A DNA stretch of 64,000 nucleotides from Gemmatimonadetes bacterium SCN 70-22. Its GTDB lineage: Bacteria; Gemmatimonadota; Gemmatimonadetes; Gemmatimonadales; Gemmatimonadaceae. The position numbers and the translations under genes were made by a program. Within the stretch, counting starts at the first letter, position 1, and every line of letters starts with the position of its first letter. The stretch spans positions 1-64,000 of the forward strand of contig MEDZ01000010.1 of the NCBI GenBank assembly GCA_001724275.1, in the 5' to 3' direction. Under the pieces are notes generated by a model. It made no database searches. It saw only the letters and a list, made by a program, of their open reading frames with translations, and was not told the DNA's origin. Below, piece after piece: positions 23,603 to 46,698 of this stretch.

Positions 23603-24763
23603 CTAGTGCCGCCTCGCGCTCGAATCCGGCACGAACGTGAACGGCAGCTGCACCACCTGCTGCACCGTGATCCCCTTCCGCATCGCCGGGACGAACTGCT
23701 GCGTGCGCAGCGACGCGCGCACCGCGTCCGCGAAGGCCGGATGACTCGCCGTCACCACGTTGAACGTGTCCAGGTTCACGTCGCCCTGCGCGTCCACTAC
23801 GAACTCGGCCAGCACCCGCCCCGGGACCAGGTTCTGGTACAGCGAGTCGGGATACACGGGGCGTGACAGCTGCGACGAGTCCACGCGCGCCTGCTGGTCC
23901 ACCTGGTCGGCCGTGAACACCGAGAACTGCTGCACCAGCTGGGCGATCTGCGCCGCGGGCGAAGGCTCTCCCTTCTTCCGCTTCTTGGGGCGCAGCTCGC
24001 CCTGCCGCGACCAGAGGATGATGGTCCCGCACGCGCTGCTGAGGTTGCGGTTCCCCTGGAACTCGGCCGGGACGCCTGCTGCCCCGTTGTAGATCTCGAT
24101 CCCCTCGAACGAGCGCGGGTCCACCGCGTCGAGGTCGAATTCTCCGGCGTACAGCGGCGAGCCGTCCAGCCAGGTGAGCGGCGCGCACCGCGACCCGCGG
24201 AACCGCACCGCCGTGTTGAAGCCGCGCGTCTCCACCCGCGCCCCCGGCACCATGCGGAACAGGTCCGTCATGTTCATCGGGTTGCGTTTCTCCACCTGCT
24301 CGTGCGTGATGAAGGTCCCGCCGCCGCGCGACATGCGCTGGTAGAAGCCCGCCATGCGCCCGGTGAGCTCCTTGCGCCCGAGGACCACCACGGGGGTCAG
24401 CTCCACCGCCAAACGCCGCAGCCGGATCTCCGCCGGGACGCTCTCCCCGGCCAGGACGTTCACCGTCACCGAGTCGGGGCGAAAGCCGATGCGCCGGACG
24501 TGGATCTTCAGCTGTCCGGCGTTGGCCTTGGTGAGGACGAACTCCCCTCCCGCCCCGCTCTCGCCGCGCATCGGCGAACCGGCCACGGAGACCTGCGCCC
24601 CTTCGATGGGCGTGCCTGACGAGTCCCGGACCGTCCCCTTCACCCCCCCCGTCCCGATCGCCCCTTCCTGCGCATCGGCGCTCGCCGTGAAACACGTGAA
24701 CAGCGCCGCGACGGCAACCGATGACCGGCGCGAGACGGTGTGGATCGGACGGTGGTACCTCAC
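23603..24763 (-). CDS. Secreted hybrid: carboxypeptidase-regulatory domain, TonB-receptor plug and TonB C-terminal domain
   Basis: 386 residues from a GTG with a strong GGGGGAGG ribosome-binding site. Signal peptide: SSVAVAALFTCFTASADAQ. Domains in order: a carboxypeptidase regulatory-like beta sandwich (VKGTVRDSSGTPIEGAQVSV), a plug-like region (FITHEQVEKRNPMNMTDLF, then VPGARV), and a TonB C-terminal domain (GRVLAEFVVDAQGDVNL ... RTQQFVPAMRKG ... LPFTF). There is no 22-stranded barrel and no membrane anchor besides the signal peptide. It combines receptor-side and transducer-side elements in one short protein. Role unknown; possibly an envelope adaptor. Confidence 0.8.
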   Translation of the reverse strand: MRYHRPIHTVSRRSSVAVAALFTCFTASADAQEGAIGTGGVKGTVRDSSGTPIEGAQVSVAGSPMRGESGAGGEFVLTKANAGQLKIHVRRIGFRPDSVTVNVLAGESVPAEIRLRRLAVELTPVVVLGRKELTGRMAGFYQRMSRGGGTFITHEQVEKRNPMNMTDLFRMVPGARVETRGFNTAVRFRGSRCAPLTWLDGSPLYAGEFDLDAVDPRSFEGIEIYNGAAGVPAEFQGNRNLSSACGTIILWSRQGELRPKKRKKGEPSPAAQIAQLVQQFSVFTADQVDQQARVDSSQLSRPVYPDSLYQNLVPGRVLAEFVVDAQGDVNLDTFNVVTASHPAFADAVRASLRTQQFVPAMRKGITVQQVVQLPFTFVPDSSARRH

Positions 24764-24978
24764 GAGAACCTCCCCCGCCGTGGCGGGTGCGCAGCATCCT
24801 GGGGGTGATGGCTGGCAGGCAGCAGTCATCGTACCCCTCTGGACGAAGAAATGCACCACCGGCAAGTTCGGTTGCCAGTTCCGCATCTCCCGATAAACCC
24901 GGATATCCTCCGCCCGATTCGCGATCCGTCCCTGCCCCTCCACTCCGGGAGAGCGGGGCGTAACTCACGAGGCTCCAC

Positions 24979-27237
24979 ATGCTTCCCGGCGTCCGCCGCA
25001 CCCTCCTCCCGGCCACCCTCCTCGCCCTCTCCCCCCTGGCCCAGCCGCAGGACGGAGGGGCGCTGCGCGGCTTCACCCCCGAGTCGGCCCGCACCCAGCG
25101 GGAGTGGGAGGCGAAGTTCCGCGCCCTCCCCGACACCGCTCGCCTCCGCGCCTACATGCGCCGGCTCTCCGCCCGCCCGCACCACGTGGGGTCGGCGTAC
25201 CAGAAGGAGAATGCCGACTACCTGCGCGAGCTCTTCGCCAGCTGGGGGTGGGACGCGAAGCTCGAGCGCTACGACGTCCTCTTCCCCACGCCCAAGGTGC
25301 GGCGCCTCGAGCTCCTCGGCCCCAACCGCTACGTCGCCCGGCTCGCCGAACCGGCACTGAAAGACGACCCCTCGACGGCGTACACGTCGGAGCAGCTCCC
25401 GACCTACAACGCCTATTCCGGTGACGGCGACGTGACCGCACCGCTCGTCTACGTCAACTACGGCGTGCCGGCCGACTACGAGGAGCTCGAGAAGCACGGG
25501 ATCTCGGTCAAGGGGGCGATCGTGATCGCCCGCTACGGCGGCTCATGGCGGGGGATCAAGCCGAAGGTCGCCTTCGAGCACGGCGCCGTGGGGTGCCTCA
25601 TCTACTCGGACCCGCGCGACGACGGCTACGCGCAGGGCGATGTGTATCCCAAGGGAGCGTGGCGCCCGCGCGATGGCGTGCAGCGCGGCTCCGTCCTGGA
25701 CATGCCGGTTGCGCCTGGCGACCCGCTCACCGTGGGGCACGGCGCCACCCCCGGGGCGCCGCGCATCGACCGCAAGGACGCGGCGACGATCATGAAGATC
25801 CCGGTCCTCCCCATCTCCTACGAGGACGCGCAGCCACTCCTGGCCGCCCTCGCCGGCCCGGTGGCCCCCCCGTCGTGGCGCGGGGCGCTCCCCCTCACCT
25901 ACAAGCTGGGCCCCAGCGCCGCCAGGGTGCGCCTGGTGGTGCAGAACGACTGGAAGCTCACCCCGGCCTATGACGTGGTCGCCACGCTCCGGGGGAGCAC
26001 GACCCCCGACGAGTGGGTGGTGCGCGGGAACCACTACGACGGGTGGGTGAACGGCGCCGAGGACCCCATTGCCGGGATGATCAGCGTGCTGGAGGAGGCA
26101 CGCGCCATGGGCGAGCTGTACAAGCAGGGGTGGCGCCCCAGGCGCACCATCGTCTACGCGGGATGGGACGCCGAGGAGCCGGCGCTGCTGGGCTCGACGG
26201 AGTGGGCCGAGGACCATGGCCCCGAGCTCAGGGAGAAGGCGGTGGCGTACATCAACACCGACGGCAACGGGCGTGGCTACTTCGGCGCCGGCGGCTCGCA
26301 CTCGCTGGAGTCGTTCATCAATGAGGTGACGAAGGACATCGAGGATCCGGAGACCGGGCTCTCGGTCTGGAAGCGCTCGCAGGCCGCGCTCGTCCGGAAC
26401 GGGAGCGCCACCGAACGGCGCGAGGCGCGCGAGCGCGCCGATCTCCGCATCGAGGCGTTGGGCTCGGGTTCCGACTTCACCCCGTTCATCCAGCACCTGG
26501 GGATCGCCTCGCTCAACCTGGGCTATGGCGGCGAGGATGGGGGCGGGATCTACCACTCCATCTACGACACGTGGCAGTGGTACGAGCGCTTCAGCGACGG
26601 CAATTACCTCTATGGGCGCGCCCTGGCACAGACGGTGGGGACGGCGGTGATGCGCCTGGCCAGCGCCGACGTGCTCCCGTACGGCTTCAACAACCTGGCC
26701 GAGACGCTCCGCGGCTACGTGACCGAGATCAAGGGCGTGCGCGACGACCTGGCGGCCCGCGCCGCCGAGCACAATCGCCAGCTGCAGGACGGTGTCTTCG
26801 CGGCGACGAACGACCCCAAGGCGCCCCTCGCGCTCCCGTCGGCGAAGTCGCTCCCGCCGCACCTGAACTTCGCCCCGCTCGACAACGCGGTCGACTCGCT
26901 CACCCGGGCGGCGGCCAGGTACGAGGCGGCGTTAGGCGCAGCGCTGCGTGGCGGAGCATCACCTTCGGCGATGGCGCGGGCCAACGCGATGCTGAAGGAT
27001 GCCGAGCGCATGTTCGCCGACGACGCCGGCCTCCCGCGCCGCCCCTGGTACAAGCACCTGCTGTACGCGCCGGGCTACTACACGGGCTACGGCGTCAAGA
27101 CGCTCCCCGGGGTGCGCGAGGCGGTGGAGCAGGAGTCGTGGGACGAGGCCGCGCGGGAGGTCACGCGCCTGTCGGCGGCCATCGAGCGCGGGGCGGGGCA
27201 CGTCGCGAGGGTGTCCGCCACGCTGGAGGGACGATGA
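24979..27237 (+). CDS. Secreted M28 family metallopeptidase, glutamate carboxypeptidase II / transferrin-receptor type
   Basis: 752 residues with an N-terminal signal. A protease-associated domain (about 130-310, with APLVYVNYGVPADYEELEKHG and KGAIVIARYGGSWRGIK) is inserted into the M28 catalytic domain. Zinc ligands and the catalytic Glu are visible: GNHYDGWVNGAEDP near 351-363, DAEEPALLGS near 396, NTDG near 427 and YHSIYDT near 525. The C-terminal helical dimerisation domain is present. Human homologues cleave N-acetyl-aspartyl-glutamate and gamma-glutamates, so peptide scavenging is expected in the periplasm. Its stop overlaps the start of the next amidohydrolase gene (ATGA), suggesting joint peptide/N-acyl amino acid use. 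One TTA codon at 26932. Confidence 0.92.
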   Translation: MLPGVRRTLLPATLLALSPLAQPQDGGALRGFTPESARTQREWEAKFRALPDTARLRAYMRRLSARPHHVGSAYQKENADYLRELFASWGWDAKLERYDVLFPTPKVRRLELLGPNRYVARLAEPALKDDPSTAYTSEQLPTYNAYSGDGDVTAPLVYVNYGVPADYEELEKHGISVKGAIVIARYGGSWRGIKPKVAFEHGAVGCLIYSDPRDDGYAQGDVYPKGAWRPRDGVQRGSVLDMPVAPGDPLTVGHGATPGAPRIDRKDAATIMKIPVLPISYEDAQPLLAALAGPVAPPSWRGALPLTYKLGPSAARVRLVVQNDWKLTPAYDVVATLRGSTTPDEWVVRGNHYDGWVNGAEDPIAGMISVLEEARAMGELYKQGWRPRRTIVYAGWDAEEPALLGSTEWAEDHGPELREKAVAYINTDGNGRGYFGAGGSHSLESFINEVTKDIEDPETGLSVWKRSQAALVRNGSATERREARERADLRIEALGSGSDFTPFIQHLGIASLNLGYGGEDGGGIYHSIYDTWQWYERFSDGNYLYGRALAQTVGTAVMRLASADVLPYGFNNLAETLRGYVTEIKGVRDDLAARAAEHNRQLQDGVFAATNDPKAPLALPSAKSLPPHLNFAPLDNAVDSLTRAAARYEAALGAALRGGASPSAMARANAMLKDAERMFADDAGLPRRPWYKHLLYAPGYYTGYGVKTLPGVREAVEQESWDEAAREVTRLSAAIERGAGHVARVSATLEGR

Positions 27238-28952
27238 GCGGCACCCGCTGGATCGCCGTACTGGCTGTCGCAGTCATGGCGTGCGGCCGGGCGCCGTCCC
27301 TTGCCCTCACCCCCGACCGCGGCCCCTACGACGTCATCATCGAGAACGGGCGCATCGTCGACGGCTCCGGCAATCCCTGGTTTGCCGGCGACCTCGCCAT
27401 CACGGGCGACCGCATCGCCGCCATCACCATCGCCGGGGGGTTGCGCCACGCCTCGGCGAGGGAGCGCGTCGACGCCAGCCACCGCGTCGTGGCGCCGGGA
27501 TTCATCGACATCCAGTCGCACTCGTGGGACCCCTTCCTGTGGCGCGACGGGCGCGTCGTCTCCAAGGTCACGCAAGGGGTCACCAGCGAGATCCTGGGCG
27601 AGGCGACCACGCCGGCCCCCTCCAACGACAAGGTGGAGGCGCTCGAGGAGATCGACCGGATGGCCCCCCGCCGCGCCGAGCTGCAGCGCGCCTTCCGGGG
27701 GACGCACGGCTTCGGGGCCTGGCTCTCGGCCATGGAGCGCAACGGGATCTCCGTCAACGCCGGGTCGTACCTGGGCGCCACGACCGTGCGCGCCTACGTG
27801 ATGGGGCAGTCGCCGGGCACGCCCGACGCGACGCAGGTCGACACCATGCGCGCCGTGGTCGCCAACGCCATGCGCGACGGCGCCTTCGGGATCTCCACCG
27901 CCCTCATCTACCCGCCGGGCTCGTACGCCGGCACCGGGGAGCTGGTCGAGATGGCGAAGGCCATGGCCCCCTTCCAGGGGGGATACATCACCCACATGCG
28001 CTCGGAGGACGACTCGCTCTACGAGGCGATGGACGAGGCCTTCCGCATCGGGCGCGAGGGAGGGGTGCGCGTCGACATCTATCACCTCAAGGCGTCCAAC
28101 CGTCGCAACTGGGGCAAGGCCCCGGGGATGGTCGCGAGGATCGACTCGGCGCGTGGCGCGGGCCTCGACGTGGCGGCGACGATGTACCCGTATCCCTTCT
28201 CGGGAAACAACCTGGGCGAGTGCTTCCCCGACTGGGCCGCTGCCGAGGGGAAGTTGTTCGACAACCTGCGAAATGCAGACACGCGCGCGCGCATCGTGCG
28301 CGAGATGACGGACATGAATGGCGCGCCGCTCTGCCAGCTCGAGGGGCCGTCGGCGTACATGATCGCCGGCTTCGAGAAGCCGGAGCACCGGCCGTACGAG
28401 GGGAAGTTCCTGGGCGACATCGCCGCCGCGATGAACCGGCCGTGGGCCGAGGCCATCATCGACCTGATCCTCGCCGAGGGGCACGATCTCTCGAAGATCA
28501 ACTTCACGATGTCCGAGGAGAACGTGCGCATGCAGCTCAAGTCGCCGTGGGTCTCGATCGGGACCGATGCCGGCGGCGTGGATCCGGACAGCGCCACCGG
28601 GATCGTCCACCCTCGCGCCTACGGGAGCTACCCACGCATCCTCGGGCGCTACGTGCGCGAGCAGAAGCTCCTGACGCTGGAGGACGCCGTGCGCCGCATG
28701 TCGTCCGCCGTCGCCTCGCGCCTGGCGCTCCGCGACCGGGGCTCGCTGCACCGGGGGATGTATGCCGACGTCATCGTCTTCGACCCGGCGACGATCATCG
28801 ACCTCGCGACGGCGGAGAAGCCGCATCAGTTGAGCCGGGGGGTGGAGCAGGTCTGGGTGAACGGCGTCCGTGTGCTGCGGGATGGACGCCACACCAACGC
28901 CAAGCCGGGTCGGGCCCTGCGCGGCCCCGGGTGGGACGGATCGGTGCGATAG
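27234..28952 (+). CDS. D-aminoacylase/N-acyl-D-amino-acid deacylase family lipoprotein
   Basis: 572 residues. Lipoprotein signal AVAVMAC. Amidohydrolase fold with YDVIIENGRIVDGSGNPWF at the N-terminus, GYITHMRSEDD and VDIYHLKASN (two His), and SIGTDAGGVDP (catalytic Asp) at the expected spacing for D-aminoacylases. At the first metal motif, where D-aminoacylases have HxH, this protein has FIDIQSHSWDP, and the Cys-containing GNCG loop is replaced by LGEATT. It is probably a periplasmic amidase acting on N-acyl or D-residue substrates, but the substrate is uncertain. Translationally coupled to the M28 peptidase upstream. Confidence 0.85.
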   Translation: MSGTRWIAVLAVAVMACGRAPSLALTPDRGPYDVIIENGRIVDGSGNPWFAGDLAITGDRIAAITIAGGLRHASARERVDASHRVVAPGFIDIQSHSWDPFLWRDGRVVSKVTQGVTSEILGEATTPAPSNDKVEALEEIDRMAPRRAELQRAFRGTHGFGAWLSAMERNGISVNAGSYLGATTVRAYVMGQSPGTPDATQVDTMRAVVANAMRDGAFGISTALIYPPGSYAGTGELVEMAKAMAPFQGGYITHMRSEDDSLYEAMDEAFRIGREGGVRVDIYHLKASNRRNWGKAPGMVARIDSARGAGLDVAATMYPYPFSGNNLGECFPDWAAAEGKLFDNLRNADTRARIVREMTDMNGAPLCQLEGPSAYMIAGFEKPEHRPYEGKFLGDIAAAMNRPWAEAIIDLILAEGHDLSKINFTMSEENVRMQLKSPWVSIGTDAGGVDPDSATGIVHPRAYGSYPRILGRYVREQKLLTLEDAVRRMSSAVASRLALRDRGSLHRGMYADVIVFDPATIIDLATAEKPHQLSRGVEQVWVNGVRVLRDGRHTNAKPGRALRGPGWDGSVR

Positions 28953-32032: not shown

Positions 32033-32059
32033 GCGGCGCCAGGGGGCGCGGGGCGCCGC
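32033..32059. terminator. Hairpin between convergent genes
   Basis: GCGGCGCC-(11)-GGCGCCGC lies between the kinase stop and the M20 gene stop. There is no T tract, so terminator function is probable only. Confidence 0.45.
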
Positions 32060-33306
32060 TAGCGGCCGCTCGCCAGTTCCTCGCTCGCCACTCGCGCGCA
32101 CTCCGCCAGGACGGAGGCTCCGACGAGGATGGCCCCGTCGGCGGCATGGAAGCGCGGCGAGTGCGCCGCCACCGCCTCGCCTCCCGCCTCGCGCGCCCCG
32201 ATCCGCATGAAGCACCCCGGGATGCGTTCCATGTAGAAGGCGAAGTCCTCGCCCCCCATGTTCGTGATCCCGAAGGGGACGACCGCCCCCTCGCCCAACA
32301 CAGCGGTTGCCGCCCGGCGCGCCCAGGCGGCCTCGCGCTCCGGATTCACGATGGGCGGGGTCCCCAGCTCCACCGCGACGTCGGCGCGTACCCCGTGCGC
32401 GGCCGCGATCGCGGTGGCGAGGCGCGTGAGCTCCTCGCCCAGGCGTCGGCGGGTGGCGGGATCCATCGCCCGCAGCGTCCCGGTGAGCGTCGCCGTCTCG
32501 GGGATCACGTTGGGCGCCACGCCGGCGTGCACGCTCCCGACGGTGCAGACCGCGGGGAAGGCGGGGTCGAGGCGGCGCGCGACGATGGTCTGGAGGGCGG
32601 TGATGACGGCAGCGGCCGCCACCACCGGGTCGGCCGACTCGTGCGGCCGTGCCCCATGGGCCCCGCGCCCGGTGAGGGTGATGGTGAAGGTGTCGGCCGA
32701 GGCGGCGAGGGGGCCGGGCTCGGCGACGACCTGGCCGACGGCGAAGCGCCGGTCCACGTGGCCGCCGAAGATGGCCGCCACGCCGTCGAGGGCGCCGCTG
32801 GCGAGGATGGCGGGGGCGCCCGCCCCCACCTCCTCCGCCGGCTGCAACACCACGAGCACGTCGCCCCGCGCGGGGCGACGGACGAGGTCCATCGCGGCCC
32901 CGATGGCCCAGGTGGCGTGCACGTCGTGCCCGCAGGCGTGCATCACCCCGGGAACGGTCGAGGCGTAGGCGAGTCCCGTCTCCTCCTGGATGGGGAGGGC
33001 GTCGATGTCGCCGCGGACGGCGACCACGGGGCCCTTCGGGTCGCGCCCGCGGAAGCGGGCCACCACCCCGGTGCCCGCCACCCGCGCCACCTCGCCGCCT
33101 AACGTTTCAACGGCCGCCGCCAGGCGGTCGGCGGTGGCCTGCTCCTGCCACGACAGCTCGGGGTGGCGGTGCAGCTCGCGGCGGAGGACGAGGAGGCGCG
33201 CGACCTCGTCGTCCGTGAAGCGTGCGAGGGCGGCGGCGGGGACGTCGATATGCCCGGTGCCCGACTGGCCCGCCGCCGGGGCGCCGTCCCCCGGCGCGCT
33301 ATTCAC
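32059..33306 (-). CDS. M20 family amidohydrolase, probable N-succinyl/N-acyl-L-amino-acid deacylase
   Basis: 415 residues from a GTG overlapping the upstream gene by 8 bases. M20D metal-binding motifs: GDIDALP, MHACGHDVH and EEVGAGAP, a dimerisation domain in the middle (GRGAHGARPHESADP) and GGEDFAFYMERIPG near the C-terminus. The family removes acyl groups from N-acyl amino acids. Being the third gene of an operon with a GNAT transferase and an N-succinylamino-acid racemase, the likely substrate is N-succinyl-L-amino acid, giving free L-amino acid. No signal peptide, so cytoplasmic. One TTA codon lies at 33102-33100. Confidence 0.88.
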   Translation of the reverse strand: MNSAPGDGAPAAGQSGTGHIDVPAAALARFTDDEVARLLVLRRELHRHPELSWQEQATADRLAAAVETLGGEVARVAGTGVVARFRGRDPKGPVVAVRGDIDALPIQEETGLAYASTVPGVMHACGHDVHATWAIGAAMDLVRRPARGDVLVVLQPAEEVGAGAPAILASGALDGVAAIFGGHVDRRFAVGQVVAEPGPLAASADTFTITLTGRGAHGARPHESADPVVAAAAVITALQTIVARRLDPAFPAVCTVGSVHAGVAPNVIPETATLTGTLRAMDPATRRRLGEELTRLATAIAAAHGVRADVAVELGTPPIVNPEREAAWARRAATAVLGEGAVVPFGITNMGGEDFAFYMERIPGCFMRIGAREAGGEAVAAHSPRFHAADGAILVGASVLAECARVASEELASGR

Positions 33307-34420
33307 CCAGCCGCTCCAGCCGCACCGTGAGGTCGTCGATGCGGTCGGTGTCGACCGTGACGCCGAGCCCCGGGCGCCCGAGCGGGACCTGGACCGTCCC
33401 GTCGGCGGTCATCGTCCACTCGGGGGTGACCACGTCGCGCGCCCAGTAGCGCGCGCTGGGGCTCACGTCCCCCGGCTTCTGGAAGTTGGGGAGCGAGGCG
33501 AGGGCGACGTTGTACGCGCGCCCGATCCCGCTCTCGAGCATCCCCCCGCACCAGACCGGGATCCCGTTCGCCTCGCAGAAGTCGTGGATGGCGATCGACG
33601 ACGAGAAGCCGCCGACGCGCCCCGGCTTGATGTTGATGATCCGCCCCGAGCCCAGGGTGACCATGTCCTGCGCGCGCGCGAGCGTGGTGATGGACTCGTC
33701 GAGGCAGACCGGCGTGCGGAGCCGCCGCTGCAGCTCTGCGTGGCGGACGAGGTCCTCCCAGTCGAGCGGCTGCTCGAACATCATGAGGTCGAGGTCGTCC
33801 ATGGCCACGAACGTCTCGATGTCGTCGAGCGTGTATGCGTTGTTGGCGTCGGCCATCAGCGGGGCGTCGGGGAAGGCCTCGCGCACGGCCCGCACGTAGT
33901 CCACGTCCTTGCCGGGCTTGATCTTGATCTTGATCTTGCGGTACCCCTCGGCGAGGGCGGCCCGCGCCTTCTCGACCAGGTGCGCGGGCGAGGGCTGGAT
34001 ACCTAACGATATGCCGACCGGGATCTCCGGGCGCGTCCCGCCGATGAGCGTGGCGAGGGGGATCCCGAGGCGCTCCGCCTCCACCCCCCACATCCCCATC
34101 TCGACCGCGCCCTTGGCCATGTTGTGCCCGCGGAAGTCCTGCTCCAGCGCGGCGTGCACCGCGCCCGGCCCGCCGAACTCGCGGAAGAGGACGCGGGGGG
34201 CGACCCACTTGGTGATCGCCAGCCAGGCGGTGTCGGTCGTCTCGGAGGTGTAGTTTGGTGTGTCGTCGGCCACGCACTCGCTCCAGGCGGTGGCGCCGTC
34301 GGCGTCGCGCAGCTCGAGGAGGAGGATGCGCCGCTCGCTCATCGTCCCCGACGAGATCTGGAAGGGTTCGCGAAGCGGGAGGCGGATCTCGCGGAGGGTG
34401 ATGCCGGTGAGGCGGAGCAT
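33299..34420 (-). CDS. Enolase-superfamily N-succinylamino-acid racemase / o-succinylbenzoate synthase (MenC type 2)
   Basis: 373 residues. Muconate-lactonising-enzyme subgroup features: the Lys pair in KIKIKIKPG near residue 163, metal ligands in MADANNAY (about 189), MFEQPL (about 214) and CLDES (about 240), and the second catalytic Lys in INIKPGRVGG (about 265). Sequence alone does not separate menaquinone synthesis (o-succinylbenzoate synthase) from racemisation of N-succinyl amino acids; many members do both. The flanking COG3375-type GNAT gene and M20 deacylase, and no men genes, support the racemase role. One TTA codon at 34006-34004. Confidence 0.88.
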   Translation of the reverse strand: MLRLTGITLREIRLPLREPFQISSGTMSERRILLLELRDADGATAWSECVADDTPNYTSETTDTAWLAITKWVAPRVLFREFGGPGAVHAALEQDFRGHNMAKGAVEMGMWGVEAERLGIPLATLIGGTRPEIPVGISLGIQPSPAHLVEKARAALAEGYRKIKIKIKPGKDVDYVRAVREAFPDAPLMADANNAYTLDDIETFVAMDDLDLMMFEQPLDWEDLVRHAELQRRLRTPVCLDESITTLARAQDMVTLGSGRIINIKPGRVGGFSSSIAIHDFCEANGIPVWCGGMLESGIGRAYNVALASLPNFQKPGDVSPSARYWARDVVTPEWTMTADGTVQVPLGRPGLGVTVDTDRIDDLTVRLERLGE

Positions 34421-34426
34421 GGAGTC

Positions 34427-34453
34427 GAGACGGAAGACGGGAGACGGGAGAGG
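34427..34453. repeat. GAGACGG-type repeat tract within operon
   Basis: gagacggaagacgggagacg, continuing ggagagg, fills the 45-base gap between the GNAT gene stop and the racemase gene start. Confidence 0.6.
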
Positions 34454-34465
34454 ATGGCGCGGGGA

Positions 34466-35284
34466 TCAGGCCTGGCGCGTGAACACGTAGTACGGCGACG
34501 CACCGCCCGTGGGGCGGACGAAGCGCGTGACGGCGAGGCCGCGCGTCAGCAGCGTGTGGAAGGACTCGCGCACGCTCAGGCGCCAGCGGAGGGCCGCGTC
34601 GTCGGACTGGTCCTGCACCTCGCCGTGGTCGTGCGGCACCTGGACGCGGGCGCCGTCCGCGCTCCCGGTGTGCGCGAAGGAAGGGAGGCCGTCGGGGGCG
34701 AGCGGGTTCGCCATGGGGAGCGCGGAGTCCCCCGGGCGCTCGACATCGGCCCCGGGGGCGGGGCGGGAGTCTGCCGACAGCTGCCACCCGTAGACCAGCC
34801 GGTCGGTGGGGAGCGCGCCGTGGAGCGTGCTCCCGGTGATGCCGTACATGTTGTCCACGTACTCCACCGGGCGGGCGCCGAGGCGGTTGATGTTGAAGTG
34901 CGCGTTGCGGGCGACCAGCGGGTCGGCGGTCCAGAGCATGACCTCCACGCCGAGCGCCTGCACCTGCTGCCGCTGGTAGTGCTTGAGCCGATCGCCGATG
35001 TGGCGCCCGCGCGCCTCGACGCGGACGGCGAGCATGTCCGACCAGTGCGCCGGCTTCCCGTTCCTGAGCCCCGTGAGGCCGAAGACGAAGCCGACCATGC
35101 GCCCGTTGCCGTCGAAGGCGCCGGCCGTGACTCCCCCCACCTTCTGCGAGACGCGCAGGATGGCCGCCGGGACGCGCTCCGAGAATCCGCGCCCCCAGGT
35201 CTCCTCCTGAATCTCGCAGCACTCGACATATTCCTCGAGGGTACGGAGGTCGCGAATGCTGATGTTCTCGAGCGGATCGATCAT
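34466..35284 (-). CDS. GNAT acyltransferase of the COG3375 type, probable D-amino-acid N-succinyltransferase
   Basis: 272 residues, start at the ATG before IDPLENISIRDL. Family features: EIQEETWGRGFSERVPAAI, VGGVTAGAF, the acetyl-CoA-binding-like loop VRVEARGRHIGDRLKHYQR, MLWTADPLVARNAHFNINRLGA and the C-terminal PTDRLVYGW. In Geobacillus kaustophilus a homologue works with N-succinylamino-acid racemase and an M20 desuccinylase to turn D- into L-amino acids irreversibly, and here the same three gene types form one operon. The activity is therefore inferred from family and context. No ribosome-binding site was seen. Transcription should begin near the GntR-type palindrome at 35371. Confidence 0.85.
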   Translation of the reverse strand: MIDPLENISIRDLRTLEEYVECCEIQEETWGRGFSERVPAAILRVSQKVGGVTAGAFDGNGRMVGFVFGLTGLRNGKPAHWSDMLAVRVEARGRHIGDRLKHYQRQQVQALGVEVMLWTADPLVARNAHFNINRLGARPVEYVDNMYGITGSTLHGALPTDRLVYGWQLSADSRPAPGADVERPGDSALPMANPLAPDGLPSFAHTGSADGARVQVPHDHGEVQDQSDDAALRWRLSVRESFHTLLTRGLAVTRFVRPTGGASPYYVFTRQA

Positions 35285-35370: not shown

Positions 35371-35384
35371 AATTGTATACAATT
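35371..35384. promoter_or_regulatory. GntR-family operator between divergent genes
   Basis: AATTGTATACAATT is a perfect 14-base palindrome whose core TTGTATACAA is repeated before the downstream deacylase gene. It overlaps TACAAT, a -10-like hexamer, on both strands. It lies 87 bases from the GNAT start and 44 bases from the regulator start. Confidence 0.8.
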
Positions 35385-35427: not shown

Positions 35428-36144
35428 GTGAAGCGAGTAGCGAAGACTGGCGCGCCCTCGCGCGCCGCACGCCCCGAGATCGTCTACCGCAAGCTCCGTG
35501 AGCTCATCGTCCGTGGCCAGCTGGCGCCGGGGACCCGTATCGTCGAGACCGACGTGGCGCAGCGGCTGGGGGTGAGCCGCACGCCCGTCCGCGGCGCACT
35601 CCAGCGCCTGCAGCAGGAGGGGTACATCGTCGACTCGCCCGCGTTGCAGCAGTCGCGCCCCACCGTCGCCCCCCTCACGCGCGAGGACGAGCGCGAGCTC
35701 TTCTCCATCGTCGCCGAGGTGGAAGGGCTGGCCGCCCGCATCGCGGCCCAGCGCCCGGTGGCCGATCGCGAGAAGCTGGTCGCCGAGCTCACCGCCATCA
35801 ACGAGCAGTTCCGCAAGGCGGCGGAGGCGAAGCAGCACAACCACAACCGGCTGTGGGAGCTGGACGAACGCTTCCACCGCACGTACGTGGAGGCGGCCGC
35901 CGGGCCGCGCCTCCTCGCCCTGTACGAGGCGGTCAAGCCGCAGGCCGAGCGCTACGAGCGCATCTACGTGAGTCTCCTCGCGCGCGACCTCTCCCCATCG
36001 GTCGGCGAGCACGCGGCGATCATCCGCGCCATCAAGGGCGGCAACGCGGACGTCGCGCAGCACGCGGTCCAGACCAACTGGCGCAACGCCGCCGAACGGC
36101 TGGGGAACGTGATCACCAGCGTGGGTGAACGCGGGCAGTGGTGA
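35428..36144 (+). CDS. GntR-family transcriptional regulator, FadR subfamily (FCD domain)
   Basis: 238 residues from a GTG with ribosome-binding site GGGAGGA. N-terminal winged helix-turn-helix: LRELIVRGQLAPGTRIVETDVAQRLGVSRTPVRGALQRLQQEGY. The all-helical FCD effector domain follows, with the metal-ligand pattern ERFHRTYVEAA, GEHAAIIRAIKGGN and AVQTNW. It is divergent from the GNAT/racemase/M20 operon and followed by a D-aminoacylase-type gene; palindromes TTGTATACAA sit before both transcription units. A repressor that senses a D-amino acid or N-acyl amino acid is the simplest inference; the ligand is not shown by sequence. Confidence 0.9.
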   Translation: MKRVAKTGAPSRAARPEIVYRKLRELIVRGQLAPGTRIVETDVAQRLGVSRTPVRGALQRLQQEGYIVDSPALQQSRPTVAPLTREDERELFSIVAEVEGLAARIAAQRPVADREKLVAELTAINEQFRKAAEAKQHNHNRLWELDERFHRTYVEAAAGPRLLALYEAVKPQAERYERIYVSLLARDLSPSVGEHAAIIRAIKGGNADVAQHAVQTNWRNAAERLGNVITSVGERGQW

Positions 36145-36177: not shown

Positions 36178-36187
36178 TTGTATACAA
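36178..36187. promoter_or_regulatory. GntR-family operator at a likely leaderless promoter
   Basis: TTGTATACAA is identical to the core of the palindrome at 35371. TACAAT (36183-36188) fits a -10 element, with TTGCCG at 36159-36164 as a weak -35 and an 18-base spacer. Seven bases after the -10 is the A of the ATG at 36195, so the transcript probably has no leader. Confidence 0.75.
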
Positions 36188-36194
36188 TTATCGC

Positions 36195-37937
36195 ATGCCC
36201 ACCACCGCGCACCTCCCGACTCGCCGCGTCACGGCACGCCCCGGACGCATCGCCCCTCCCCTCTCGCTCGCCCTCGCCCTCGCCGCCGGGGGCTGCCGCG
36301 GCGCGAGCCCGGCCCCCGCCCCGTCCCCCGCGGTGGTCGCCCAGGCCTCGCGCGATGCGCCTGACGGCCGCGTCCGCCTGGGGGGCGCCGAGTACGACGT
36401 GGTCATCCGCAACGGGCGCGTCCTCGACGGGATGGGGAACCCGTGGATCCTGGCCGACGTCGGTATCCGCGACGGCAAGTTCGCCCGCATCGGGAAGATC
36501 GACGGACAAGGCGTGCGCGAGATCGACGCCCGCGGGCTCTACGTCTCCCCAGGGTGGATCGACATGATGGACCAGTCGGGCGGGGTCCTCCCGCGCAACG
36601 GGCTGGCCGAGAACAAGCTGCGCATGGGGGTGACGACGGCGATCGGCGGCGAGGGCGGATTCCCCGTCGGCGCGTCGCGCATCCCGGAGTACTTCGCCAC
36701 CCTCGAACGACAGGGGATCAGCATCAACTTCGGGAGCTACTACAGCGCGACCCAGGCCCGCTCGGCGGTGATCGGCGCCTTCAACCGCGCCCCCACCCCC
36801 GCCGAGTTGGACCGGATGCGCGCCAGCATGGACACGGCGATGCGCGCCGGGGCGATGGGGATGACCACGGCGCTCATCTACCCACCCAGTTCCTACAGCA
36901 CCACCGAGGAACTGGTCGAGCTGGCGAAGGTCGCGGCGAAGTACGGCGGCGTCTACGCGAGCCATATCCGCGGTGAGGGCGCGGAAGTGGTGCAGTCGGT
37001 GCGCGAGCTGGTGCGCATCGCCGAGGAAGGGGGGCTCCCCGGCGAGGTCTTCCACCTCAAGGTGGCGTATCGCCCCGGGTGGGGGGTGCTGATGGACAGC
37101 GTGCGCCAGGTGGTGGAGGCCGCCCGCGCGCGCAACGTGGATGTTGCCGCCGATTTGTATGTCTACACGGCCGGTGGCACGGGGCTCGAGGCCACGATCC
37201 CGTCGTGGGCCGCCGACGGCGGACGCGATTCGCTGCTCAAGCGCCTCGCCGACCCCGCGATCCGCGAGCGCCTCAAGCGCGAGCTGCAGACCGGATCCCC
37301 CGGATGGTGGAACATCGTGGAGGCGGCCGGCGGCTGGGATGGCGTGGTGCTGGTGAACGCGCGGAACCCGGCCAACGCGAAGTACGAGCGGAAGACGCTC
37401 ACCCAGATCGCGCGGGAGATGGGGAAGGAACCGGCCGACGCGGCGTGGGACCTGGTGGCCCAGGGGAACGGGCGCGTCATGGCGATCTACCACATGATGA
37501 GCGAGCAGGACATCGAGACCGCGCTCCGCTTCCCGTGGACGAGCATCGGGAGCGACGCGGGGGCCCAGCTCGCCGCTGGGAGCGTGGACCAGACGGGACT
37601 GCCGCACCCGCGCATGTACGGCAACGCGGTGCGCGTCCTCTCGCGCTACGCGCGCGACCGCAAGGTCCTGTCGCTCGAGGAAGCCGTTCGCAAGCAGACG
37701 TCGTGGCCGGCCACGCGGATGCGCCTGGCCGCCCGCGGTTCCATCAAGGAGGGGAACTGGGCCGACGTCACGATCTTCAACCTCGAGACGCTCGACGATC
37801 GGGCCACCTACGACGACCCGATCGCCTATCCCACGGGGATCGAGTACGTCCTGGTCAACGGCCAGGTGACGATCGACCGCGGGACGCACACCACGGCGCG
37901 CGCCGGCCACGTGCTGTACGGGCCGGGAAAGCGTTAG
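36195..37937 (+). CDS. D-aminoacylase/N-acyl-D-amino-acid deacylase family protein, secreted
   Basis: 580 residues with a signal peptide ending in a lipobox-like AAGGC. Amidohydrolase fold: YDVVIRNGRVLDGMGNPW, GVTTAIGGEGGF, YASHIRGEG and VFHLKVAY (His ligands), SIGSDAGAQ (catalytic Asp). The first metal motif is altered: SPGWIDMMDQSG where HxH is normal, and GGEGG replaces the Cys loop. The control region holds a GntR operator shared with the adjacent D-amino-acid conversion operon, so it may release D-amino acids from N-acyl or peptide precursors outside the cytoplasm. No ribosome-binding site; probably leaderless. The stop TAG lies in a CGTTAGGC motif. Confidence 0.88.
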   Translation: MPTTAHLPTRRVTARPGRIAPPLSLALALAAGGCRGASPAPAPSPAVVAQASRDAPDGRVRLGGAEYDVVIRNGRVLDGMGNPWILADVGIRDGKFARIGKIDGQGVREIDARGLYVSPGWIDMMDQSGGVLPRNGLAENKLRMGVTTAIGGEGGFPVGASRIPEYFATLERQGISINFGSYYSATQARSAVIGAFNRAPTPAELDRMRASMDTAMRAGAMGMTTALIYPPSSYSTTEELVELAKVAAKYGGVYASHIRGEGAEVVQSVRELVRIAEEGGLPGEVFHLKVAYRPGWGVLMDSVRQVVEAARARNVDVAADLYVYTAGGTGLEATIPSWAADGGRDSLLKRLADPAIRERLKRELQTGSPGWWNIVEAAGGWDGVVLVNARNPANAKYERKTLTQIAREMGKEPADAAWDLVAQGNGRVMAIYHMMSEQDIETALRFPWTSIGSDAGAQLAAGSVDQTGLPHPRMYGNAVRVLSRYARDRKVLSLEEAVRKQTSWPATRMRLAARGSIKEGNWADVTIFNLETLDDRATYDDPIAYPTGIEYVLVNGQVTIDRGTHTTARAGHVLYGPGKR

Positions 37938-38004: not shown

Positions 38005-39594
38005 ATGCCCATCATGCCGCATTCGACTCGTCCCTTCCCCCGCCGTGCACGGTTCGGCGCCGCCGGGGCGGCGGCCCTCGCCCTCACCCTCGCGCTCCCC
38101 GCCCTTGCGCTCCCCGCCCATGCCCAGCAGGCCAAGGGCAATGCCGCTCGGCTGTCGCAGCTCGACGCCTACGTGGCCGCGACGATGAGGGAGTGGAAGG
38201 TCCCGGGGCTCGCCCTGGCGATCGTGAAGGACGATTCCGTGATCTACGCCAAGGGGTACGGGACCCGCACCGTGGGCAGGGCGGAGCCGGTCGACCAGAA
38301 CACCCTCTTCGCCATCGGCTCCTCGTCCAAGGCCTTCACGGCGGCGCTGGTGGCCATGGCGGTGGACGACGGGAAGATGAAGTGGGACGAGAGGGTGACG
38401 GCCTACCTCCCCGGGTTGCAGCTGTACGACCGGTACGCATCGCGCGACCTCACCATCCGCGACGCCCTGTCGCATCGGAGCGGCCTCGCGCGCGGCGACT
38501 TCGCCTGGTACATCAGCGGCTTCCCCCGCGACGAGATCCTGCGGCGCGTGCGCTACCTCGAGCCCAGCTGGGGATTCCGGGCGCAATTCGGCTACCAGAA
38601 CCTGATGTACCTGGCGGCCGGCGAGGCGGCGGCCGCGGCCGGCGGGGCCTCGTGGGACGCCCTGGTGCAGACGAGGATCTTCGCCCCGCTGGGAATGACG
38701 TCGTCGTCCACCTCGATCCGCGCGCTGGCCGGGGCCGCGAACGTGGCGACGCCGCACGCCGAGGTCAACGACACGGTCGTCACCCTCCCCTGGAAGGACA
38801 TCGACAACATCGCCCCGGCAGGGTCGATCAACTCCAACGTGCGCGACATGGCGCAGTGGCTGCGGTTGCAGCTGGGGCGCGGGAAGTACGCCGGGAAGCA
38901 GCTCATCTCCGCCCGCAACCACGGCGAGATGTGGCTCCCCAACATCCACATCCGCCTGCAGGGACCCACCGCCAGCTACCTCGCCCCGGGGGCCAGGCTG
39001 TCGTCGTACGGGATGGGGTGGTTCCTCCAGGACTTCGACGGGCGGCTGGCGGTGCACCACGGCGGCAACATCGACGGGATGTCGGCCATGGTGGCCATGC
39101 TCCCCGACGAGAACCTGGGCGTCGTGGTCCTCACGAACATGAACGGCTCGCCGGCGCCGCTGTCGATCTTCCCCCGCGTCTTCGACCTGTTCACGCGCGA
39201 CACGCCGCGCGACTGGAATGCCGAGTACCTGAAGATCGTGCAACCGATGCGCGAGGCCGCCCGGGCCGCCGAGGAGGCGCAGCGGAAGGCACGCGTCCCG
39301 GGAACAAGGCCGTCACTCGAGCTCGCGAAGTACGCGGGAACCTACACCGACTCGCTCTACGGTGACATCGTCATCACCGAGAAGGATGGCGCGCTGAGCT
39401 TCCAGTTCGGGCGCGTGGGCGGCGCCATGGAGCACTGGCACTACGACACCTTCCGCGCCTCGATGGCGGCGCCGGTCCCGACCAAGGCGACCGTGAGCTT
39501 CATCCTCGACGCCAAGGGAGCCCCCGCCGAGCTGAAGCTCGACATCGCCCCCGAATCCAGGTTCCGCGCCGCCAACCCCGGCCCACGAAGGTAG
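38005..39594 (+). CDS. Secreted serine hydrolase, class C beta-lactamase / D-aminopeptidase-like
   Basis: 529 residues with a signal ending LALPAHAQ. The active-site motif SSSK (catalytic Ser and Lys, in AIGSSSKAFTAAL) and the second motif YQN (GYQNLMYL) are clear; a HGG triad occurs in VHHGGNIDGM. The C-terminal 110 residues match the DUF3471-type domain of this group. Members include D-aminopeptidases, DD-peptidases and esterases rather than true antibiotic resistance enzymes. Being just behind the D-aminoacylase gene, a role in releasing D-amino acids from peptides is plausible but inferred. A second ATG at 38014 is possible. Confidence 0.88.
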   Translation: MPIMPHSTRPFPRRARFGAAGAAALALTLALPALALPAHAQQAKGNAARLSQLDAYVAATMREWKVPGLALAIVKDDSVIYAKGYGTRTVGRAEPVDQNTLFAIGSSSKAFTAALVAMAVDDGKMKWDERVTAYLPGLQLYDRYASRDLTIRDALSHRSGLARGDFAWYISGFPRDEILRRVRYLEPSWGFRAQFGYQNLMYLAAGEAAAAAGGASWDALVQTRIFAPLGMTSSSTSIRALAGAANVATPHAEVNDTVVTLPWKDIDNIAPAGSINSNVRDMAQWLRLQLGRGKYAGKQLISARNHGEMWLPNIHIRLQGPTASYLAPGARLSSYGMGWFLQDFDGRLAVHHGGNIDGMSAMVAMLPDENLGVVVLTNMNGSPAPLSIFPRVFDLFTRDTPRDWNAEYLKIVQPMREAARAAEEAQRKARVPGTRPSLELAKYAGTYTDSLYGDIVITEKDGALSFQFGRVGGAMEHWHYDTFRASMAAPVPTKATVSFILDAKGAPAELKLDIAPESRFRAANPGPRR

Positions 39595-39727: not shown

Positions 39728-40708
39728 CTAAGCAAAGAGCCCCACCTGCCCCCCCGTGTGCCAGAACATCACGGTCTGCCCATCCTTGAAGCGACCGGCG
39801 CGCGCGTAGGCGATGAGGCCGGCCATCGCCTTGGCCGTGTACCAGTGGTCCAGGAAGATCGCCTCGGTGCGGGCGGCGAGCGCCTGCGCCTCGCGCGACG
39901 CTTCGGTCGGGATCCCGTATCCCTCGCCGATGAACGCGTCGTCGGCCTCGAAGCGCGACTCGGCGCCGAGCGCGCCCGCCGGGAGCTCGAGCAGCCCTTC
40001 CATGCCGTGGCAGATGGAGGTGACGACGTGCCGGATCTCATCCACCGTGTCGTCGGCGCTGATCCCGATGATCCGCGTCGGCACCTCGAACAGGGCACAC
40101 CCGGCGATGAGCCCCGCCTGCGTCCCCCCCGACGAGGTGGCGTGGATGATGTAGTCGGGGACGATGCCCTGGCGCACGACTTCCCCGATGCCGAGGGCGA
40201 GCCCCAGCCCCCCGAGCGGGGTCGAGGCGCCTAACGGGATGACGAGCGGCGTGCGCCCCTCGGCGCGCAGCCGCCCGGCCAGCGCGTCCATGGCGGGATT
40301 GCGATCGGTGCGCTGCGCGACGTAGTGGACGTGCGCGCCGAGGAGGGCGTCGAGGAGGGCGTTCCCCGTGAGGCGGTCGGGTGGGGTACCGTTGGCGACG
40401 ATGTGGCACGCCATCCCGAGCCTGGCGGCGGTGGCCGCCGTGGCGCGGCAGTGATTGGACTGCACGCCGCCGCAGGTGATGAGGGTGTCGACACCATCGC
40501 GCTGGGCCCGGGCGGCGACGAGGCCCAGCTTGCGGACCTTGTTGCCACCAAAGCCGAAGGGGAGGGCGTCGTCGCGCTTGATGACGAGGCGCGCGCCCAT
40601 CCCGATCGCATCACGCAGTCGCGGAGCCTCGTCCACGGGGGTAGGTAGTGCCCCCAGGGCCAGATGGGGGAGGGCGAGAAGGCGGTCGCGAGCGGCGGTG
40701 AGGGACAT
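39728..40708 (-). CDS. D-cysteine desulfhydrase / ACC deaminase family PLP enzyme
   Basis: 326 residues. Fold type II PLP enzyme with the PLP Lys in FGFGGNKVRKL, the CGGVQSNHCRATAA segment, SSGGTQAGL (phosphate-binding loop) and VMFWHTGGQVGLF at the C-terminus, all as in DcyD. The family splits D-cysteine to pyruvate, ammonia and sulfide or deaminates 1-aminocyclopropane carboxylate. Near a D-amino-acid salvage cluster the D-cysteine role is favoured. The ATG at 40708 fits family N-termini; a GTG at 40723 is also possible. One TTA codon at 40234-40232. Confidence 0.88.
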   Translation of the reverse strand: MSLTAARDRLLALPHLALGALPTPVDEAPRLRDAIGMGARLVIKRDDALPFGFGGNKVRKLGLVAARAQRDGVDTLITCGGVQSNHCRATAATAARLGMACHIVANGTPPDRLTGNALLDALLGAHVHYVAQRTDRNPAMDALAGRLRAEGRTPLVIPLGASTPLGGLGLALGIGEVVRQGIVPDYIIHATSSGGTQAGLIAGCALFEVPTRIIGISADDTVDEIRHVVTSICHGMEGLLELPAGALGAESRFEADDAFIGEGYGIPTEASREAQALAARTEAIFLDHWYTAKAMAGLIAYARAGRFKDGQTVMFWHTGGQVGLFA

Positions 40709-40909
40709 TGGTCGATGGGTCACGCTGGAGGCGGTCGGTGGTCGAGCGCGCTACCAGACGGTGAATACGGGCGAGTGCGGGGGCGAGGGAAGGGAAGATG
40801 CCCCCAGGGCTGCAGCTTCGCATCGGCATCGGGGTCGGCTCCCGCATTAACGGGCGCGACAGCCTGCCGCCCACAACTTGCATGGCGTACCAGGCACCGT
40901 GTGTAGCCG

Positions 40910-45446: not shown

Positions 45447-46622
45447 TCATCGCCATACCTCGCCCAACAATCGCATCCAGTTGCCGCCGAGGATCTTCTC
45501 GATCCGCGCCGCGGGGTGTCCTGCCCCGGCCAGAGCGTCGGCCACGAGCTCCATGCGACGCGGCGAGTTGAAGTCGGGGACGTAGTTGAAGACGTTGGCA
45601 TCCTCGCCCGGCGCCGAGATCCCCGCCTTGCGCCGCGCTTCCACGAAGTCGGCGTGGACCTTCCGGAACTCGGGGGTGAGGTCGAGCGGCGTGATCGAGT
45701 TGTCGCTCCCCACGCCCACGTGATCCTCGCCGCACACGTTCACGCAGTGGGTCACGTGGCGCACGAAGTCGTCGGCCGTCGGCTGCCCGCGCTCGCGCAG
45801 GAAGGGCATCATGAAGACGCCCACCACCCCCCCCTTGTCGGCGAGCGCGCGAAGGACGTCGTCCGGCTTGTTGCGGGGGACGTTGGTCACGGCGGCCGCC
45901 CCGGAGTGCGTGGCGGCGATGGGGCGGCGCGAGGCGACGATCGCCTGGCGCGTGGTCTCCCACCCCGTGTGGCTGATGTCGACGAGAATCCCCATCTCGT
46001 TCATGCGCGCGACCAGGTCGCGCCCATACGGCTTGAGCCCTCCGTCCTTCGGCACGAGGCACCCGTCGCCGACCAGGTTGGGGCCATTGTACGTCAGCTG
46101 CACGATGCGCACGCCAAGGCGATGGAACATCTCGAGGCGCTCGGGCCGGTCCCAGATGGGCGTGGTGTCCTGGAAGCCGAGGATCGCCCCGAGCTTGCGC
46201 TCGGCCTTGGCCCGGCGGATGTCGGCGACCGTGCGGACCTTCGTGAAGACGTCGGGCGAGCGTTGCAGCTCGTACTCCCAGGATGCGATGTTGGCCACCG
46301 TCGCCTCGAAGGCCGTGCTGGCATCGCCCGTGGCGCTCACCGTCGAGTTGACCGCCGTGATCCCCGAGCGGCGCGCGTTCTCGATCATGGCGCGGGTGAG
46401 CGGTCCCTTGAGCCAGTCGGGGACGTTGAACGGCCCCGGGGTGGCCAGCATGTCGATGACGATGGCGTCGTCGTAGCCCGGCCAGCGCCAGGGCGAGACG
46501 GGCGCTGGGAGCCGGGAGGCGGGAGAGGCGCCGCCGAGCAGCGCCCGCGGGAGGGCACCGGTGGCGACGGCGGCGACGGCGACACGGCTGAAGTCGCGGC
46601 GGGACAGGGGGGGATTCGGCAT
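45447..46622 (-). CDS. Membrane dipeptidase (M19) family protein with Tat signal
   Basis: 391 residues. The start at 46622 gives a Tat-type signal (SRRDFSRVAVAAVATGALP). M19 features: LGFQDTTPIWDRPERLEMF, VQLTYNGPNLVGDGC, LVDISHTG (His ligand), IAATHSGAAAV (His) and GVGSDN. At the N-terminal metal motif, where renal dipeptidase has DGHND, this protein reads VIDMLATPGPFN, so one zinc site seems altered. M19 enzymes cleave dipeptides, often with a C-terminal D-residue, in line with other D-amino-acid enzymes nearby. Exported to the periplasm, folded. Confidence 0.87.
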   Translation of the reverse strand: MPNPPLSRRDFSRVAVAAVATGALPRALLGGASPASRLPAPVSPWRWPGYDDAIVIDMLATPGPFNVPDWLKGPLTRAMIENARRSGITAVNSTVSATGDASTAFEATVANIASWEYELQRSPDVFTKVRTVADIRRAKAERKLGAILGFQDTTPIWDRPERLEMFHRLGVRIVQLTYNGPNLVGDGCLVPKDGGLKPYGRDLVARMNEMGILVDISHTGWETTRQAIVASRRPIAATHSGAAAVTNVPRNKPDDVLRALADKGGVVGVFMMPFLRERGQPTADDFVRHVTHCVNVCGEDHVGVGSDNSITPLDLTPEFRKVHADFVEARRKAGISAPGEDANVFNYVPDFNSPRRMELVADALAGAGHPAARIEKILGGNWMRLLGEVWR

Positions 46623-46698
46623 GGCGGGGGCGGCGCGGTTGGGTGCGTCATCATGCGGCGCCGCCCCGGCGGCGGGAAGGGGCGAAGTGGCGACGTCG

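Follow-up and report, generated by a model that had tools for sequence, protein, structure and literature searches.

A predicted GntR-controlled operon for D- to L-amino-acid conversion in a Gemmatimonadota bacterium

Three genes of Gemmatimonadetes bacterium SCN 70-22 very probably encode a cytoplasmic pathway for the conversion of D- to L-amino acids, which would be the inner part of a GntR-controlled D-amino-acid salvage regulon. The genes lie within the 64,000-nucleotide stretch of DNA that we analyzed (the window) and encode a GNAT protein, a racemase of the NSAR/OSBS subfamily, and an M20 metallo-amidohydrolase (Table 1). In the pathway that we propose, a D-amino acid first receives an N-acyl group from the GNAT protein, with succinyl-CoA as the most likely donor. 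The racemase would then use its two catalytic lysines to convert the N-acyl-D form to the N-acyl-L form and back, and the M20 protein would hydrolyze the N-acyl-L form only, drawing the sequence towards the L-amino acid. The conversion would be irreversible because the acyl-CoA thioester is consumed. We infer all of these enzymatic steps, including the L-selectivity of the M20 protein, from sequence.

A previous sequence-only reading of this DNA had placed three adjacent minus-strand genes at 32059-35284, with the racemase and deacylase genes overlapping. All three open reading frames are present there; the overlap amounts to 8 bp (33299-33306), and a gap of 45 bp separates the GNAT and racemase genes. 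The end coordinate is exact, because the ATG of the GNAT gene can be read directly in the sequence at 35284-35282.

Table 1. Features of the operon and its surroundings in the window
Feature	Position	Strand	Basis
GNAT-fold N-acyltransferase (predicted), 272 aa, operon gene 1	34466..35284	-	ATG read; weak PF13508/PF00583; AlphaFold/Foldseek; racemase adjacency
NSAR/OSBS-subfamily racemase (enolase superfamily), 373 aa	33299..34420	-	TIGR01928; PDB relatives; invariant residues
M20 metallo-amidohydrolase, 415 aa	32059..33306	-	TIGR01891; YxeP; 8 bp overlap with racemase; order in relatives
TTGTATACAA palindrome in divergent GNAT/GntR intergenic region, predicted GntR operator	35373..35382	.	Copy counts; conservation in relatives
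GntR/FCD-family transcription regulator, divergent to operon	35428..36144	+	PF07729 and PF00392; orthologues close to GNAT
Second TTGTATACAA palindrome, 7 bp 5' of likely start of D-aminoacylase-like gene	36178..36187	.	Copy counts; also before orthologue at loci L099 and L039
Exported Amidohydro_3 protein, relative of D-aminoacylase / N-acyl-D-amino-acid deacylase, predicted regulon member	36195..37937	+	PF07969; PDB matches; operator-like site in front
Exported beta-lactamase-fold serine hydrolase, downstream neighbor, possible D-peptide or D-acyl hydrolase	38005..39594	+	PF00144 and PF11954; PDB matches
Second exported Amidohydro_3 (D-aminoacylase-like) protein	27234..28952	+	PF07969; other genera have relatives placed between GntR and GNAT

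The racemase scores 329 bits against TIGR01928 (cut-off, 200.65), and its best solved relatives in the PDB are the N-acylamino acid racemases 1r0m, 2ggg, and 1sja (315 to 324 bits). Residues K164, K166, D191, E216, D241, K265, and R268 are invariant across 73 relatives. By sequence the protein belongs to the NSAR/OSBS subfamily with intact catalytic residues, and we propose that it acts as an N-acyl(succinyl)-amino-acid racemase. Its scores fall far below the cut-offs for muconate cycloisomerase and for the DgcA racemase (114.5 bits against the equivalog cut-off of 400 of NF042940), and we rejected both identities. The peptidases in the neighborhood of the operon, which include an M19 family protein at 45447-46835, would fit a racemase acting on dipeptides in peptidoglycan recycling, like L-Ala-D/L-Glu epimerases. 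However, the protein reaches only 76.8 and 83 bits where the epimerase equivalog cut-offs are 343 and 500, and it shares 46% identity with a Lysinibacillus enzyme that is likewise placed with M20 and GNAT genes; an epimerase identity was rejected, and we give the dipeptide role almost no credence.

Enzymes of the NSAR/OSBS subfamily can also make o-succinylbenzoate (PMC4215206), which makes their physiological role hard to settle. Both the name of TIGR01928, an equivalog model whose cut-off the racemase exceeds, and the menC label of its homologues in public records point to an o-succinylbenzoate synthase (MenC) for menaquinone. However, profile searches of the genome (99.98% complete) found no MenD (the best match, at E 1.7e-7, fell short of the 244-bit cut-off) and no other menC over the cut-off, while MqnC is present (466 to 468 bits, over the cut-off) with an MqnE-like gene adjoining. 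The absence of MenD and the presence of MqnC indicate that the cell makes menaquinone by the futalosine route, without need for OSBS. Gemmatimonadales favor this route according to a published survey (PMC9426454), and in a set of 53 genomes from this family no MenD scored above the cut-off, though 35 retain a GNAT-racemase pair. The operon partners of the racemase are the GNAT and M20 genes, not men genes. A MenC role in this genome is ruled out by the pattern of MenD and MqnC, and as an explanation of the gene it keeps very little probability. The sequence-only reading had argued against a plain menC role from the lack of menaquinone genes nearby, and both the observation and the argument hold. 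It saw a difficulty in a menaquinone-making genome with no other menC, and proposed a search for men genes elsewhere; no other menC was found, yet with MenD missing and MqnC present this does not speak against it.

Within the phylum the active-site residues do not separate NSAR-only from OSBS-type enzymes, the catalytic residues being identical in menD and futalosine genomes. In the racemase tree the enzymes of futalosine genomes group together (4 changes versus 23 in shuffles) but without forming a single clade; the position of the root is uncertain.

The GNAT protein has no Pfam or NCBIfam match over the cut-off in profile searches (PF13508 and PF00583 are weak), and a sequence search found no solved relative. 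Its AlphaFold model (pLDDT 77, pTM 0.75) has GNAT acetyltransferases as top Foldseek matches (E about 4e-6), from which we assign it a GNAT fold; in our proposal it would N-acylate, probably N-succinylate, D-amino acids. The M20 protein scores 337.6 bits against TIGR01891 (cut-off, 153.75), has YxeP as its closest solved structure, and is proposed to be an N-acyl-L-amino-acid deacylase (desuccinylase). Succinyl is the most likely acyl group by the Geobacillus precedent; homology does not fix it, and N-acetyl is possible for the GNAT and M20 proteins. The same three-step logic could thus run on an acetyl-CoA-dependent GNAT, an N-acetylamino acid racemase, and an aminoacylase: acetyl-CoA is the usual donor of GNAT proteins, most of which use it, deacetylases are among the M20 enzymes grouped under TIGR01891, and the relative from Deinococcus goes by the name N-acylamino acid racemase. 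However, characterized NSAR/OSBS-subfamily enzymes reportedly prefer N-succinyl substrates, and we consider an N-acetyl pathway unlikely.

All three genes are present in 34 of the 53 family genomes and none in 17, with part of the trio in 2. Gemmatirosa kalamazoonensis, a culturable relative that also carries the trio, has these genes at two places. The GNAT gene adjoins the racemase gene in every one of the 35 genomes having both, and 30 of the 34 with the full set have the M20 gene immediately 3' of a racemase gene; the genomes are related to one another, so these counts are not independent. A further 44 plasmid records carry a homologue of the GNAT gene and come largely from phyla other than Gemmatimonadota; in 43 of them the racemase gene lies on the same strand within about 1.1 kb. 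The near all-or-none occurrence, the conserved order in relatives, and the adjacency on plasmids argue for a cluster beyond chance, and the three-gene order that the sequence-only reading had proposed to look for is indeed conserved. A scan of the genome collection with the GNAT protein gave three loci only. The trio had been thought little described outside Firmicutes-type genomes; it is more widespread, the trio or its GNAT-racemase core occurring in Gemmatimonadota, Acidobacteriota, Deinococcota, Actinomycetota, Alphaproteobacteria, and Gammaproteobacteria. A literature search found no paper on a Gemmatimonadota D-amino-acid racemase. Next to GNAT-racemase pairs elsewhere, the M20 proteins belong to different branches, with 29% identity in Lysinibacillus and no detectable similarity in Deinococcus ficus and Streptomyces, which makes the third step of the pathway less secure than the first two.

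Geobacillus kaustophilus reportedly has an N-succinyl pathway for irreversible D- to L-amino-acid conversion, described as the same three activities from a GNAT acyltransferase, an NSAR of the enolase superfamily, and an M20 deacylase. The operon studied here differs in its phylum, in its futalosine background, in which OSBS is not required, in that its activities are predicted, and in the predicted GntR operator joining it to exported D-aminoacylase-like and D-peptidase-like genes. A Lysinibacillus fusiformis plasmid (NZ_CP130332) has the three families side by side (nearly full-length identities of 46% for the racemase, 29% for M20, and 25% for GNAT), but in the order M20-GNAT-"menC", with a peptide transporter upstream and no adjoining GntR or D-aminoacylase gene. 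The GNAT and NAAAR genes of D. radiodurans MP1 (NC_000958) and Deinococcus sp. QL22 (NZ_CP097151) are also close together on one strand (identities about 32 to 34% for GNAT and 44 to 45% for the racemase), and QL22 adds ABC transporter, serine hydrolase, and D-aminoacylase genes. In contrast to our operon, transporter genes lie beside or between the two, and M20 is absent from both stretches (that of D. ficus is of an unrelated branch). The DgcN-DgcA D-glutamate pathway (dgcN is discussed in PMC12363236) is likewise an irreversible multistep racemization of a D-amino acid with an enolase-superfamily racemase, but our racemase is not of the DgcA type, and acylation in our operon would fall to a GNAT protein.

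The regulatory evidence comes from the palindrome TTGTATACAA, of which the window holds 2 exact copies where 0.03 are expected with up to 1 mismatch. In the 4.7-Mb genome it occurs exactly in four places only (reversed control, 0): between the operon and the divergent GntR/FCD gene, before the D-aminoacylase-like lipoprotein gene, before a serine hydrolase gene on contig C19, and before a TonB-dependent receptor gene on contig C52. We placed the GntR start at 35428 by conservation; the longest open reading frame begins at 35311. In related genomes the palindrome accompanies the regulator and is kept in front of GNAT, GntR, or both. A genome of the same genus has five sites: besides the GNAT/GntR region, they mark the D-aminoacylase orthologue and three genes for serine hydrolases. 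In four genomes the palindrome precedes GntR where the trio is absent or located elsewhere, as autoregulation predicts. Before GNAT, an exact copy is found in 8 of 35 family genomes (10 with up to one mismatch, 13 with up to two), so we rejected a family-wide operator, and regulation through the palindrome belongs to part of the family. We infer that the GntR/FCD protein recognizes this predicted operator and would control the operon, itself, and the genes behind the other three sites.

The neighboring and coregulated genes point to D-amino acids. The protein encoded at 36195-37937, with a lipoprotein-type signal judged by eye, best matches D-aminoacylase (1rjp/1m7j, E 3e-61) and N-acyl-D-glutamate deacylase (3gip) in the PDB, and the serine hydrolase downstream matches a PBP-related beta-lactamase and the ClbP peptidase. 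Homologues of the second Amidohydro_3 protein adjoin GNAT at seven other loci. The C19 hydrolase, also exported, has D-specific relatives: alkaline D-peptidase (the closest), DD-carboxypeptidase, D-aminopeptidase, and D-amino acid amidase. In independent GNAT-racemase neighborhoods we found M20 proteins, D-aminoacylase, ABC transporters for peptides or amino acids, and serine hydrolases, the last of which recur beside the pair in Streptomyces, Arthrobacter, and Deinococcus. Several genera have a GntR orthologue near GNAT, and in two genomes a second copy of GNAT also adjoins a GntR paralogue. The operator-like site at the exported D-aminoacylase-like gene suggests that N-acyl-D-amino acids are relevant substrates, and the operon might then process them after import, with the GNAT protein doing something else, such as detoxifying an amine or amino-acid analogue. 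However, the exported deacylase would strip the acyl group prior to uptake, and no other gene, M20 included, accompanies the racemase across phyla as constantly as GNAT does, which makes this reading quite improbable. D- to L-amino-acid conversion, as originally suggested, is supported by the racemase family, the exclusion of MenC, the D-specific neighbors, and the common operator-like site.

The N-succinyl route is known from Geobacillus; what is added here is a predicted regulon, a natural experiment provided by the futalosine route, and a wide spread. The NSAR/OSBS ambiguity falls away in futalosine-route genomes whose racemase still shares an operon with GNAT and M20. We lean towards a general picture in which Gemmatimonadaceae-type bacteria combine exported D-aminoacylases and D-peptidases, an outer-membrane receptor, and cytoplasmic acylation, racemization, and deacylation in a complete, GntR-controlled scavenging regulon for D-amino acids, with a GNAT-racemase core that occurs in at least six phyla and is widely misannotated as menaquinone biosynthesis. 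In this soil-type bacterium, the operon and the exported enzymes look like a small scavenging program, and the predicted regulon, which suggests that a good many of the "menC" labels in public records are mistaken, offers testable targets for the way in which soil bacteria recycle the D-amino acids of dead biomass and cell walls.

The sequence-only reading had proposed a D- to L-amino-acid conversion operon, and its three minus-strand genes, encoding a GNAT-fold N-acyltransferase (GNAT), an NSAR/OSBS-family racemase and an M20 deacylase, are present as open reading frames at that place. The racemase scored 329 bits against the NCBIfam profile TIGR01928 (cut-off, 201), and its top matches among solved structures were N-acylamino acid racemases. 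Alignment to the family identifies its lysine pair as K166 and K265; the two-lysine mechanism has been reviewed (PMC8142540). M20 exceeded the TIGR01891 cut-off, with YxeP as its nearest solved relative. Too divergent in sequence, the GNAT protein reached no Pfam or NCBIfam cut-off in profile searches, and the top structural matches of its AlphaFold model (built from four sequences) were GNAT acetyltransferases.

Features of the window and copies of the operator-like palindrome in the genome
Feature	Position	Strand	Remarks
GNAT	34466-35284	minus	ATG at 35284-35282
Racemase	33299-34420	minus	over TIGR01928 cut-off
M20	32059-33306	minus	8-bp overlap with racemase
TTGTATACAA site 1	35373		between GNAT and GntR
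TTGTATACAA site 2	36178		before exported amidohydrolase gene, next after GntR
TTGTATACAA site 3	contig C19		25 bp before serine hydrolase gene
TTGTATACAA site 4	contig C52		about 70 bp before TonB-dependent receptor gene
D-aminoacylase-related protein	36195-37937		nearest relatives D-aminoacylase and N-acyl-D-glutamate deacylase
PLP-dependent enzyme	39728-40723		convergent with the window's own serine hydrolase gene (38005-39594)
M19 membrane-dipeptidase family protein	45447-46835
Sortilin/VPS10-like repeat protein	16501-19884
TonB plug-domain protein	23603-24943
M28 peptidase	24979-27237		transferrin-receptor-like dimerisation domain

We infer a pathway in which an exported D-peptidase and D-aminoacylase would free D-amino acids, which would enter the cell and be acylated by GNAT from acyl-CoA, probably succinyl-CoA. 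The racemase would interconvert the N-acyl-D and N-acyl-L forms via K166/K265 and M20 would hydrolyze the N-acyl-L form, the acyl-CoA cost making the conversion one-way. The same chemistry and gene trio were reportedly described in Geobacillus already, by Sakai et al. in 2006.

NCBIfam and public records name this racemase family o-succinylbenzoate synthase (OSBS, or MenC). An OSBS role is excluded in this genome: MenD is absent (none over the 244-bit cut-off; best match, E 1.7e-7), and of the two futalosine-route genes examined, MqnC was found (466-468 bits versus a cut-off of 428) and is adjoined by an MqnE-like gene slightly below its cut-off (426 versus 435 bits). The lack of menaquinone genes nearby, taken earlier as an argument against a plain menC role, was confirmed. 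MenD was over the cut-off in none of the 53 genomes of the family, and the split that we observe between families agrees with a survey (PMC9426454) reporting a preference for the futalosine route in Gemmatimonadales and use of the classical route in the SG8-23 order. An older survey (PMC3914697) lists MenC-like proteins together with MqnA, C, and D, and no MenB entry, in its single Gemmatimonadetes proteome and all 12 Deinococcus-Thermus proteomes, the pattern expected if these proteins are racemases and not OSBS. The TIGR01928 equivalog model gives the OSBS name to the entire NSAR/OSBS group; hence, in genomes with the futalosine route, the racemases carry menaquinone-enzyme annotations.

Each protein was used as a query against 150 genomes of the phylum. 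Within the family, the trio is complete in 34/53 genomes, and 17 have none of the three genes; of the other two, one lacks only M20 and the other has just a divergent racemase. Wherever both GNAT and racemase occur (35 genomes), GNAT lies upstream of a racemase and shares its strand, at a distance of 39-171 bp as measured between matched stretches. Of the 34 trio-bearing genomes, 30 have M20 directly after a racemase; M20 is divergent in G053 and G077 and 8-22 kb distant in G018 and G046. In Gemmatirosa kalamazoonensis (G078), the racemase copy beside GNAT is not the one beside M20. Shared ancestry means that these counts are not independent events. Second GNAT copies, each divergent to a GntR paralogue and with no racemase match found in the vicinity, occur in G032 (C14:49325-50095) and G061 (C9:288028-288804, containing an in-frame TAG). 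In the MenD-bearing families f5 and f7, GNAT often adjoins the racemase as well, and a close M20 orthologue is absent at E 1e-70; there, a single enzyme may serve both pathways. One f5 locus (L010) carries a pyridine-nucleotide-disulphide oxidoreductase gene (2493-3734, minus) between GNAT and racemase.

A domain search identified a GntR/FCD regulator divergent to the operon, and the palindrome TTGTATACAA is its predicted site. Two exact copies lie in the window (chance expectation, 0.03 with one mismatch allowed) and four in the whole genome, compared with none of a reversed control pattern. The best solved relatives of the C19 serine hydrolase are alkaline D-peptidase, DD-carboxypeptidase, D-aminopeptidase, and D-amino acid amidase. 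G088 belongs to the same genus, and its five exact sites lie at the GNAT/GntR region, at the orthologues of the D-aminoacylase and of the C19 serine hydrolase, and at two more serine-hydrolase-like genes, one a weak match (29% identity). A copy also closely precedes GntR in G010 and G060 (regulator without trio) and in G151 and G046 (GntR on its own), as expected for an autoregulated regulator. Before GNAT, the site is exact in 8 of 35 family genomes, rising to 10 and 13 with up to one and two mismatches, and no GntR orthologue was found in several genomes without it (G004, G026, G030, and G063); the predicted wiring is therefore limited to part of the family. G061, another family genome, has nine exact sites, which may reflect a larger regulon or the presence of a second regulator.

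Elsewhere in the window, the PLP-dependent enzyme belongs to the D-cysteine desulfhydrase/D-cysteate sulfo-lyase group, scoring below equivalog cut-offs, and is possibly another D-amino-acid enzyme. In the sister MAG L099, an M19-like gene adjoins GntR. The Sortilin/VPS10-like, TonB plug-domain, and M28 proteins are likely further exported degradation or uptake functions.

Beyond the phylum, 44 plasmid records from Deinococcota, Actinomycetota, Bacillota, Alpha- and Gammaproteobacteria, and one Gemmatimonadota carry a GNAT homologue, with a racemase at most about 1.1 kb away on the same strand in 43; D. radiodurans accounts for 15 of these, so fewer of them are independent. In a contig of Vicinamibacteraceae (Acidobacteriota), GNAT (45% identity) is directly followed by a racemase that the contig end truncates (64% identity over 193 residues). 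Similar neighborhoods recur elsewhere: D. ficus has RpiR regulator-racemase-SBP-GNAT-M20; Sulfitobacter, amino-acid ABC transporter-racemase-GNAT; Arthrobacter, M20-serine hydrolase-(gap)-GNAT-racemase; Streptomyces, peptide transporter-serine hydrolase-M20-GNAT-racemase; and Deinococcus QL22, racemase-GNAT-ABC transporter-serine hydrolase-D-aminoacylase. By sequence comparison, the M20s beside these pairs are not a single orthologous set, suggesting repeated recruitment of the deacylase.

Our literature search, with subscription journals mostly outside it, found no paper on a D-amino-acid racemase in Gemmatimonadota. As far as that literature shows, what is new is the trio in Gemmatimonadota with an OSBS role excluded there, the predicted GntR operator and its regulon with D-specific exported hydrolases, and a GNAT-racemase core that occurs across phyla under the label menC.
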